From positions 1 to 35,998 of the IMG/VR virus record IMGVR_UViG_3300008450_000174: 35,998 nucleotides of DNA; one strand, 5' to 3'. The position numbers were made by a program, and so were the translations under genes. Below the pieces are notes generated by a model. That model did no database searches. It had not been told where the DNA came from and worked only from the letters and a program-made list of their open reading frames with translations. The stretch is from a virus. The stretch's first letter is position 1. The number at the start of each line of letters is the position of its first letter. Shown piece after piece: positions 27,831 to 29,543 of this stretch.

Positions 27831-27858
27831 TTGACAACACCACTCTGTGTGGTACAGT
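27831..27858 (+). promoter_or_regulatory. Sigma70-type promoter for scaffold and capsid genes
   Basis: TTGACA (27831-27836) is followed after 16 bases by TACAGT (27853-27858). The spacer holds an inverted repeat ACCAC-TCTGT-GTGGT (27839-27853) that could be an operator. The start site would fall near 27865, giving a leader of about 110 bases before the scaffold gene. It lies only 6 bases after the stop of the preceding gene, which gives the capsid genes their own supply of message. Confidence 0.75.
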
Positions 27859-27879: not shown

Positions 27880-27934
27880 ACCGTTGGAGAATCCCCGACT
27901 TCAACGTGAAAACAAGGGTGTAATACGCAGCCAT

Positions 27935-27953
27935 CTCAACTCCTCCAGTTGAG
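27935..27953 (+). promoter_or_regulatory. Leader hairpin with anti-Shine-Dalgarno-like loop
   Basis: CTCAACT-CCTCC-AGTTGAG is a perfect 7-base stem with a 5-base loop. The loop and its flank (CTCCTCC) are complementary to the downstream ribosome binding site AGGAG (27965-27969). It could pair with that site or with ribosomal RNA-like sequence in other messages. A sister hairpin with one compensatory pair change lies at 29440-29458. Confidence 0.55.
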
Positions 27954-27975
27954 GTGTGGGCAGAAGGAGTGGGCC

Positions 27976-28425
27976 ATGTCAGATGTCAACGAGTTCGATG
28001 ACGAGACGATGGATCAAGGTCAAGACCCTGTTCGGGCGCACATGCGCAAACTCGAAAAAGAGTTGAAGCAAGAGCGAGCCGCGAGAGCAGAGGCCGAAGC
28101 AGCCAAGCGCGAACTGGCGTTTGTCAAAGCGGGAGTACCGCTCGACAACCCAGTAGCCAAGTACTTCATCAAGGGCTACGACGGCGAGATCACTCCCGAA
28201 GCAATCCGAGCAGCCGCCGAAGAAGCAAACCTTGTTCAGCCCTCCACGCAAGCCGCAGAAAACAAAGCGGAGCAGGAGACTTGGAACAAGATCTCTAAGG
28301 CCCAACGCGCTGGTGAGCAAAGCGAACCCGCCGAGGATTGGTTGACCAAGATCAACAACACTCGCAATCAGGATGAAGTGATGACCCTGCTGGCCCAGAT
28401 GAGACAGCAAGCAAACAACATCTAA
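27976..28425 (+). CDS. Capsid scaffolding protein
   Basis: ATG 27976 follows AAGGAG at 6-base spacing; longer frames would include the leader. The 149-residue protein is highly charged and helical: VRAHMRKLEKELKQERAARAEAEAAKRELAFVKAGVPLDNPVAKYFIKGYDGEITPEAIRAAAEEAN, then a Gln/Glu tail with a C-terminal helix (EVMTLLAQMRQQANNI). This is the typical layout of scaffolding proteins that guide capsid assembly and then leave. Placement directly before the major capsid gene supports it. It shares its message with the capsid gene. Confidence 0.82.
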   Translation: MSDVNEFDDETMDQGQDPVRAHMRKLEKELKQERAARAEAEAAKRELAFVKAGVPLDNPVAKYFIKGYDGEITPEAIRAAAEEANLVQPSTQAAENKAEQETWNKISKAQRAGEQSEPAEDWLTKINNTRNQDEVMTLLAQMRQQANNI

Positions 28426-28434
28426 CCCGCGGGA

Positions 28435-28452
28435 CTCCCGTCCTGTCGGGAG
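28435..28452 (+). promoter_or_regulatory. Hairpin between scaffold and capsid genes
   Basis: CTCCCG-TCCTGT-CGGGAG forms a 6-base stem with a 6-base loop in the 43-base gap between the two genes. The right arm holds the GGGAG that is the best ribosome binding sequence upstream of the capsid start, so the stem could limit or time capsid translation. A weaker AGGTA site lies closer to the start. Confidence 0.5.
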
Positions 28453-28468
28453 AAAGAAATAACAGGTA

Positions 28469-29443
28469 ATGACTAAGACACAAACGAGCGACCTGCTCAC
28501 AGACCAGGTTGCATTTGACAGGCTCGCGTATTTCGCGCTCCGCAGCGAACTTCTGTTCGACGCGGCGGCGGACGTTATGCCCGTCGCACAGGCAATGCCT
28601 GGTTCCTCGGTCAAGTTCACGATCTTCAACGATCTTGCCGAAAAGACCAGCACCCTCGTCGAGGACACCGATGTCACCCCCGTGGTGATGGGTGACAGCC
28701 AGATCGAGGTGACCCTGGAAGAGTACGGCAATGCCGTCAACACGACCGCCAAGTTGCGTGGAACCTCGTTCCTCGATGTCGACTCGGCTGCCGCGAACCT
28801 CGTCGGCTACAACGCTGGCATCTCGATCGACGGCGTGATCCGCGACGTCCTCGCTGGTGGCACGAACGTGGTCTACGGCTCGGGTGGCGCAAGCCTTCCG
28901 AACAGCCGTGCGACGGTCGGTTCGGATGACATCATCAAGGCCAACGACGTCCGCAAGATCGTCGCAGCGCTCCGCAAGGCCAACGCTGTTTCGTTCAACG
29001 GCATGTACATGGGCTACATCCACCCCGACGTGTCGTACGACCTCCGTCGCGAAACGGGTGTTGCTTCGTGGCGTGACCCGCACGTGTACGTCGACACCGC
29101 CCAGATCTACAACGGCGAAGTCGGAGCCTTCGAAGGTGTGCGTTTCATTGAGACGCCGCGCGCGAAGATCTTCGAGAACGCCTCGGATGGATCGGGTTCG
29201 AGCACGGGTTCCTCGGCAACGGTGGACGTGTACTGCACGCACATCATGGGCCGTCAGGCGCTCGCAAAGGCTCACAGCATCACGGATGGAAATGGCGCGT
29301 TCCCGCGTGTCGTCCGTGGCCCTGTGGTCGACGTGCTCCAGCGCTTCCAGCCTGTCGGCTGGTACTGGCTCGGTGGCTACGCACGATTCCGCGAGGCTTC
29401 GCTGCGTCGCATTGAGTCGTCGTCGAGCATCGGCGCAAACTGA
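28469..29443 (+). CDS. Major capsid protein, N4-gp56 family
   Basis: The 324-residue protein has the pattern of the N4-gp56 major capsid family: an N-terminal helical arm (LTDQVAFDRLAYFALRSELLFDAAADVMPV), SVKFTIFNDLAEKTSTLVEDTDVTPVVMGDSQIEVTLEEYGNAVNTT, and DSAAANLVGYNAG. It then has the conserved GMYMGYIHPDVSYDLRRETG and IYNGEVGAFEGVRFIETPRA. The HK97-type fold is expected. Position after the scaffold gene and before a strong terminator supports a highly expressed structural gene. The stop lies inside a 7-5-7 hairpin. Confidence 0.93.
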   Translation: MTKTQTSDLLTDQVAFDRLAYFALRSELLFDAAADVMPVAQAMPGSSVKFTIFNDLAEKTSTLVEDTDVTPVVMGDSQIEVTLEEYGNAVNTTAKLRGTSFLDVDSAAANLVGYNAGISIDGVIRDVLAGGTNVVYGSGGASLPNSRATVGSDDIIKANDVRKIVAALRKANAVSFNGMYMGYIHPDVSYDLRRETGVASWRDPHVYVDTAQIYNGEVGAFEGVRFIETPRAKIFENASDGSGSSTGSSATVDVYCTHIMGRQALAKAHSITDGNGAFPRVVRGPVVDVLQRFQPVGWYWLGGYARFREASLRRIESSSSIGAN

Positions 29444-29458
29444 ACTGATCTAGTTCAG
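29440..29458 (+). promoter_or_regulatory. Hairpin at the end of the capsid gene (sister of 27935-27953)
   Basis: CTGAACT-GATCT-AGTTCAG is a 7-base stem with a 5-base loop that overlaps the capsid stop codon (TGA 29441-29443). It matches the leader hairpin at 27935 except that one pair is swapped (C-G to G-C) and the loop differs. The pair-swap keeps the stem and points to selection on structure. Confidence 0.55.
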
Positions 29459-29467
29459 TAACAAGAT

Positions 29468-29513
29468 GTGGGGGTCGGGCTTTTCCCCCTCGCCCGACCC
29501 CCACTTTCTTTTT
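29468..29513 (+). terminator. Strong intrinsic terminator after the capsid gene
   Basis: GTGGGGGTCGGGC (29468-29480) and GCCCGACCCCCAC (29492-29504) form a perfect 13-base stem with an 11-base loop, followed by TTTCTTTTT (29505-29513). This is the clearest Rho-independent terminator in the window and ends the scaffold-capsid message. Confidence 0.92.
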
Positions 29514-29543
29514 GTTCTGCTATTGTGTTCCACGAGGTAGCCG

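Follow-up and report, generated by a model that had tools for sequence, protein, structure and literature searches.

The window analysed here is the whole of the 35,998-base virus record IMGVR_UViG_3300008450_000174, whose capsid protein shares 41-45% identity with those of Streptomyces podoviruses of the Beephvirinae, and 8 kb of which, used as a DNA query against a phage collection, returned no matches. The region under study is a predicted message that runs from a sigma-70-like promoter to an intrinsic terminator and encodes a putative scaffold protein followed by the major capsid protein (Table 1). The scaffold gene falls in a protein family without stated function, and its label was given because of its location just 5' of the gene for the major capsid protein, the annotation of the counterpart gene in Streptomyces phage Dennebes as scaffolding protein and an all-helical AlphaFold prediction of low confidence (mean pLDDT 68). 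When compared with the PDB, this model gave no meaningful match and no RNA-binding fold was apparent; the model speaks neither for nor against RNA binding. In all scaffolds the first predicted helix, in the N-terminal third of the protein, opens with a basic stretch, (D/N)P(V/L)R(A/S/E/T)xx(K/R)xxE, which may be regarded as a candidate place for RNA contact and hence a place to look.

A preliminary description of this DNA had pointed to two hairpins, one in the leader between the promoter and the scaffold start (core CTCAACT-CCTCC-AGTTGAG, 27935-27953) and another around the capsid stop codon (core CTGAACT-GATCT-AGTTCAG, 29440-29458), at the two ends of a message flanked by a promoter at 27831 and a terminator at 29468. 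Both hairpins were found in these places and both flanking sites were recovered. Outside that description lay the complementarity between the leader loop and the Shine-Dalgarno (SD) sequence, as well as the structures at 27882-27918 and 28426-28466. For the comparisons that follow, several hundred related loci were collected through four IMG/VR protein scans with capsids of different clades, plus pattern scans. In three of the clades the scaffold start codon was located via the capsid gene and not via the motif, and leaders were taken upstream of that start; the capsid of a fourth clade is ~56% identical to that of the window.

Table 1. Features of the scaffold-capsid message in the window.
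Feature	Position	Strand	Description
Sigma-70-like promoter of the scaffold-capsid message	27831..27858	+	TTGACA-16-TACAGT, 10/12 matches, TG before second hexamer
Upstream element (candidate tandem)	27882..27918	+	Hairpin CGTTGGAG-AATCCCCGA-CTTCAACG at 27882-27906, then GGG 27916-27918
Leader element (putative operator)	27927..27969	+	Comparative evidence and covariance model
Leader element, outer pairs	G27927-C27961, C27928-G27960	+	
Leader element, invariant internal loop	AGC 27929-27931 / UGG 27957-27959	+	
Leader element, stem	27932-27941 with 27947-27956	+	10 pairs, one T-G
Leader element, loop CCUCC	27942-27946	+	
Loop bases CUCC, proposed strand of pseudoknot stem 2	27943..27946	+	Complement of SD core
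Scaffold SD core GGAG	27966..27969	+	GGAG, or CGAG with matching loop, in all relatives
Putative scaffold gene	27976..28425	+	149 aa; phrog_7813, directly before major capsid gene
Scaffold-capsid intercistronic structure	28426..28466	+	CCCG...CGGG hairpin 28426-28450; CCTGT 28442-28446 complements ACAGG 28462-28466
Major capsid protein gene	28469..29443	+	phrog_1357 major head protein, E 4.9e-82
Stop-codon hairpin	29439..29459	+	ACTGAACT-GATCT-AGTTCAGT, around TGA 29441-29443
Intrinsic terminator	29468..29504	+	Perfect 13-bp stem, 29468-29480 with 29492-29504, T-rich tail

About 300 related sequences share with the window virus a folded RNA directly 5' of the scaffold gene. The 5' half of its consensus consists of R0 N1 AGCC, a stem of 8-9 bp and a CCUCC loop, and the 3' half of the returning stem, GYGG N5' Y6', 3-10 A-rich nucleotides, the SD sequence GGAG, a short spacer and the AUG of the scaffold gene; the window carries the 9-bp version of the stem, 8 bp being the consensus length. 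Within three clades, 157 capsid-selected loci have a leader that is genuine and complete; every one of them carries the element, in each case just 5' of the scaffold SD, a 158th locus (L075) having been set aside since its contig begins inside the scaffold gene and its 'leader' is therefore coding sequence. In the fourth clade it is found in 60/60 capsid-selected loci, 57 by pattern expression and three by eye, these last showing a further compensated pair (AAGCC...GCGGUC). The element spans in this way four capsid clades with its CCUCC loop and its flanks invariant, and is present in one copy per genome, always before the scaffold gene. Two other readings of the motif were set aside. One scan of cellular genome contigs with the commonest form gave 116 pattern matches, three of them with at least 5/6 stem pairs and none before an SD and start codon; as none of the 116 looks real, the motif appears to be phage-only. 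An open reading frame through the element appears improbable, the frames and candidate starts that were read differing between relatives.

The pairing of this element is upheld by changes between genomes. Among 83 distinct sequences, the N1-N5' pair is C-G in 65, U-A in 14, A-U in three and G-C in one, and the R0-Y6' pair is G-C in 69 and A-U in 14, with no exceptions in either case, and the stem is nearly free in sequence, its first six positions holding many different standard pairs. In the stem cells of the same set, G-U combinations far exceed A-C ones (53 vs 7), which identifies the RNA of the + strand as the folding molecule. The covariation score reaches 0.53, vs 0.20 after shuffling and no more than 0.10 when the alignment is slid, with 93.9% of cells paired, where counts are per sequence and not per evolutionary event and the sequences were gathered with the motif in view; a gapped alignment gives a similar result. 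In this regard, both the four-way N1-N5' pair across clades and the identical nested fold recovered by RNAalifold, to which no structure was supplied, are independent of a motif-guided choice of sequences. Moreover, a covariance model made from the relatives, with the window left out, finds the element in the window with 62.4 bits (E 2.2e-16). The minimum free energy of the leader is unremarkable (z = -0.37), so that comparative evidence, not folding energy alone, singles it out. Altogether, the comparisons leave hardly any doubt that the leader forms a conserved RNA fold at the ribosome-binding site of the scaffold gene.

A close-up view of the loop shows complementarity with the SD in all 83 distinct elements in which the SD was counted. 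Only two kinds of element depart from the loop CCUCC. In one of them, the sole loop transversion, CUCG, is matched at the partner base by the sole SD change that was seen, CGAG (L388 plus six further loci); in the other, a loop CUCU with SD GGAG keeps the pairing through U-G. As to the weight of these observations, three of the four loop-SD pairs are invariant, the SD is constrained anyway and the CUCG/CGAG double change represents a single lineage. Scans with the loop variants CCACC, CCCCC, CCGCC, CCTAC, CCTGC, CCTTC and CCTCA yielded only chance matches among those listed, and the isolated CUCC/GGAG duplex is short and of modest stability (-3.7 kcal/mol). These leaders do have a conserved stem-loop immediately 5' of the SD, as an SD-sequestering pseudoknot operator calls for, and we infer an H-type arrangement with the hairpin stem as stem 1, the CUCC/GGAG pairing as stem 2, and the 3' flank plus the A-rich spacer as the third loop, a kind of spacer typical of known H-type pseudoknots. 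It is probable that the loop CUCC pairs with the SD GGAG in an H-type pseudoknot, which would mask the ribosome-binding site. Where the spacer has only 3 nt, stem 2 and the outer pairs may exclude each other. The invariant AGC/UGG bases and the first C of the loop find no explanation in the pseudoknot, which suggests protein recognition or a tertiary contact.

Further upstream, a promoter-like site lies 5' of the element in 82/146 distinct leaders of relatives, vs 1% in shuffled sequence, at distances that cluster at about 20, 47 and 67-70 nt. Another hairpin, with a C-run in its loop and a G-run after it, stands between promoter and leader element in the window. Unrelated complementary sequences take the place of its stem in relatives, and the lengths of the C-run and G-run co-vary, most members of the window's clade combining CCCC with GGG and the other clades CCCCC or longer with GGGG. 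Upstream hairpins of at least six pairs with C-run and G-run occur in 31/68, 33/41 and 3/11 distinct leaders of three clades, vs 0.5-2% of shuffles, and the structure looks like a candidate tandem pseudoknot between loop and downstream sequence. Its absence from a subclade with short leaders (e.g., L014 and L020) indicates that the downstream leader element is independent of it.

At the other end of the message, the stop-codon hairpin gains an outer extra pair over its core (29439-29446 with 29452-29459) and lies 8 nt upstream of the terminator stem. At least six Watson-Crick pairs across the capsid stop are seen in 38/50 distinct ends of the window's clade, vs 2.2% of dinucleotide shuffles, and in a control at the scaffold stop a hairpin of at least six pairs appeared in 1/42. 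The stems are wholly different among relatives (CUGAACU, AACUAACU, CUUCCUGA, ACAGCUAA, CCAACU and others) and the loops variable, from which it follows that the structure is conserved and not the sequence. Other clades often have instead a short hairpin just 3' of the capsid stop, and in the fourth clade (e.g., L208, L221 and L262) a recurrent TTCCGACAAGGAA hairpin-like sequence replaces the stop hairpin right after that codon.

The preliminary description had regarded the two hairpins as one stem with a single swapped pair and had read the swap as selection on structure. The likeness is real in the window genome and does not extend to relatives: leader and stop hairpin match at six stem positions in the window and at four in the genomes nearest to it, whose capsids are 97-98% identical; in a set of 33 distinct stem combinations, the similarity within a genome is 3.27 vs 3.06 for shuffled partners. 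Selection on structure does hold at both hairpins, the leader stem changing by compensation in relatives and the stop hairpin being kept as a structure, the one present in every complete leader and the other in the majority of ends given above; what falls is the argument from the swapped pair, since the real covariation is between genomes. We therefore rejected the idea that the hairpins are copies of one element, because loop and flanks of the leader are invariant in four clades, the stop loops vary, and the stems are unlike each other in relatives. On the sequences compared, these are two unrelated elements of one message, the stop hairpin being clearest in the window's clade, unlike the leader element with its four clades. 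The stop hairpin is a separate element, most likely either a structure for stability or protection of the mRNA 3' end or a translation-termination structure.

Two side observations concern the boundaries of the capsid gene. Directly 3' of the terminator, TGCTATTGT (29521-29529) has the look of an extended -10 promoter that would serve the next gene (29544), and it is seen again in relatives as TGCTATNAT, so that terminator and promoter may overlap. Between scaffold and capsid genes, the ACAGG segment adjoins the capsid start, and the CAGG-like, CCTGT and ACAGG segments allow alternative pairings, as CCTGT could pair upstream or with ACAGG. Support for this intercistronic structure is mixed, as one relative shows compensation (L015, GCTGTGG/CCACAGC) and two others are without the CCTGT/ACAGG pairing (L108 and L114), and it is confined to the window's clade, other clades having a plain SD before the capsid gene.

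A different hairpin was found at the scaffold leader in nine records of Streptomyces phages, several of them identical in this stretch (L081 and L834-L841: Kumquat, Stella, FlowerPower, Dennebes, JXY1, Manuel, Percastrophe, RosePharie and Abafar). It reads GCA(C/U)G AGCGA, stem, UUCCCUAG, stem and C(G/A)UGC, and then the SD CUAGGAG, with an outer helix and a stem that both change by compensation and a loop CCUAG complementary to the CUAGG of the SD. It shares with the window's hairpin its location, outer helix, internal loop, covarying stem and an invariant SD-complementary loop, and differs from it in the invariant letters, UUCCCUAG and CUAGGAG. The covariance model gave no convincing match on the records of Kumquat, ct2KA10 and Bacillus phage Pascal, so the Streptomyces hairpin is called analogous and not homologous. 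The hairpin carries no annotation in the nine records, and we found no prior description of a scaffold-leader hairpin in the Beephvirinae. In Percastrophe (L839, 599), the annotated start of the pre-capsid gene falls inside the hairpin, and the true start looks like the ATG after the CTAGGAG site. In ct2KA10, a C-rich loop lies 5' of a AAGGGUGG stretch, with only three obvious pairs.

Known RNAs offer partial parallels. In preQ1 and SAM-II riboswitches, an H-type pseudoknot takes the SD as one of its strands, and its third loop is A-rich. Both features are shared by the arrangement proposed here, which differs in its bipartite hairpin with an internal loop, its context of a single phage gene and the lack of an Rfam match at threshold. 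Indeed, none of the 4227 Rfam families reached its gathering cut-off, the best in the leader being L31-Firmicutes (15.3 vs 33.3 bits); matches to ar7 and to miRNAs were discarded as they were below cut-off and on the terminator. Capsid and scaffold both go unmentioned in a survey of structured RNAs from the human microbiome. A T4 review presents the pseudoknot of gene 32 as possibly unique among those of viruses in its part in translational autoregulation. As proposed for the window, gene 32 has a phage mRNA leader pseudoknot tied to translational control of the following gene; in T4 this pseudoknot is found 67 nt upstream and serves as nucleation site for gp32, which binds over the ribosome-binding site, whereas in the window the SD itself is the proposed strand, the gene is that of a scaffold, and sequence and fold are others. 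Membership in the gene 32 type, placed before the gene of a single-strand DNA-binding protein and far 5' of the ribosome-binding site, was discarded on these grounds. A pseudoknot under autogenous translational control is also described for the operator of Escherichia coli rpsO, which encodes S15 (PMC3014915); it resembles the window proposal in this respect and differs in belonging to a cellular ribosomal-protein gene and in its structure. For the scaffolding protein of P22, post-transcriptional self-regulation has been proposed, as summarised in a later paper (Wyckoff and Casjens 1985, cited in PMC5744158). P22 is a phage unrelated to the window virus, for which autoregulation is likewise suggested for the scaffold gene, here by inference only; an element specific to the scaffold gene, as control of the P22 kind would have it, is what the genomes contain. 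Genetics revealed the self-regulation of the P22 scaffold decades ago and, to our knowledge, no defined RNA structure has been linked to it. The proposed kind of element, an SD-sequestering pseudoknot operator, is a known one, and the family appears undescribed within openly licensed papers.

What the leader element does can be proposed with graded strength. Its position and its complementarity to the SD make it likely that it controls scaffold translation, and there is a reasonable case that the scaffold gene has a cis-acting translational operator with the hairpin at its core, autogenous control being the likeliest form. The bipartite hairpin, as the comparisons show, forms and ends 3-10 nt 5' of the scaffold SD, and the loop CUCC would then pair with GGAG and hide it, a pseudoknot expected to hold scaffold translation low or adjustable. 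A trans-acting ligand might read the invariant bases of internal loop and loop and shift this balance; should the ligand be the scaffold protein, output would be tied to the pool of free scaffold, and hence to the scaffold:coat ratio. The presence of one element per genome, only before the scaffold gene, favours control by the product of that gene, and this constant location together with the P22 proposal makes the scaffold protein the likeliest ligand, an identification that we hold only tentatively by analogy.

A different ligand might instead block or open the scaffold start, be it one made by the phage (its capsid protein or some RNA-binding protein) or one from the host (a ribosomal protein or a metabolite). 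Protein operators of the MS2 type have invariant loop and internal-loop bases on free stems, a pattern that the leader element reproduces, and the sub-threshold match to the L31-Firmicutes leader points weakly in the same direction; no candidate protein was found, and the single copy before the scaffold gene speaks against it, leaving this reading rather unlikely. Slightly more unlikely still would be a fixed attenuator without ligand, in which the loop-SD pseudoknot sets a low, constant initiation of the scaffold relative to the capsid. The universal loop-SD complementarity agrees with it, and the capsid has its own ribosome-binding region, so that the ratio could be set at each start; yet many different loops and SD registers should be acceptable to a plain attenuator, which also leaves unexplained the invariant AGC/UGG, the covarying outer pairs and the invariant first C of the loop. 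The preliminary description had proposed processing sites, stability elements or binding sites for a regulatory protein. The last of these is the best class for the leader, and stability or processing leads for the stop hairpin and is improbable for the leader. That both hairpins guard the two ends of the message fits their location near the ends of one predicted transcript and a stop hairpin directly before the terminator, conserved as structure only; it is improbable as a common explanation, since an invariant loop, invariant flanks and a set distance to the SD are more than a stem that simply stabilises the 5' end would require, and many relatives have up to ~60-70 nt of leader 5' of the element. 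Palindromes acting at the DNA level, as an operator or a packaging signal, or mere chance, can be practically dismissed: both hairpins are palindromic in DNA, but the arms vary with pairing alone conserved, G-U lies far above A-C, and shuffled and slid controls fall well short.

Returning to the autogenous operator, a tailed phage has to balance its production of scaffold against that of coat. A broader and more speculative proposal, which we put forward with reserve, is that podoviruses related to the Beephvirinae possess a widespread, undescribed class of tandem leader pseudoknots (C-run/G-run and CUCC/SD), by means of which the scaffold protein would repress its own translation and set the scaffold:coat ratio. 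In any case, covariation establishes a specific RNA at the scaffold gene of environmental phages that number in the hundreds; an on/off pairing is predicted for it, and cultured Streptomyces phages have an analogue. The predicted pairing and the Streptomyces analogue make the question of scaffold self-regulation testable by reporter and, if true, the element would join the very few pseudoknots known to serve viruses as translational operators.
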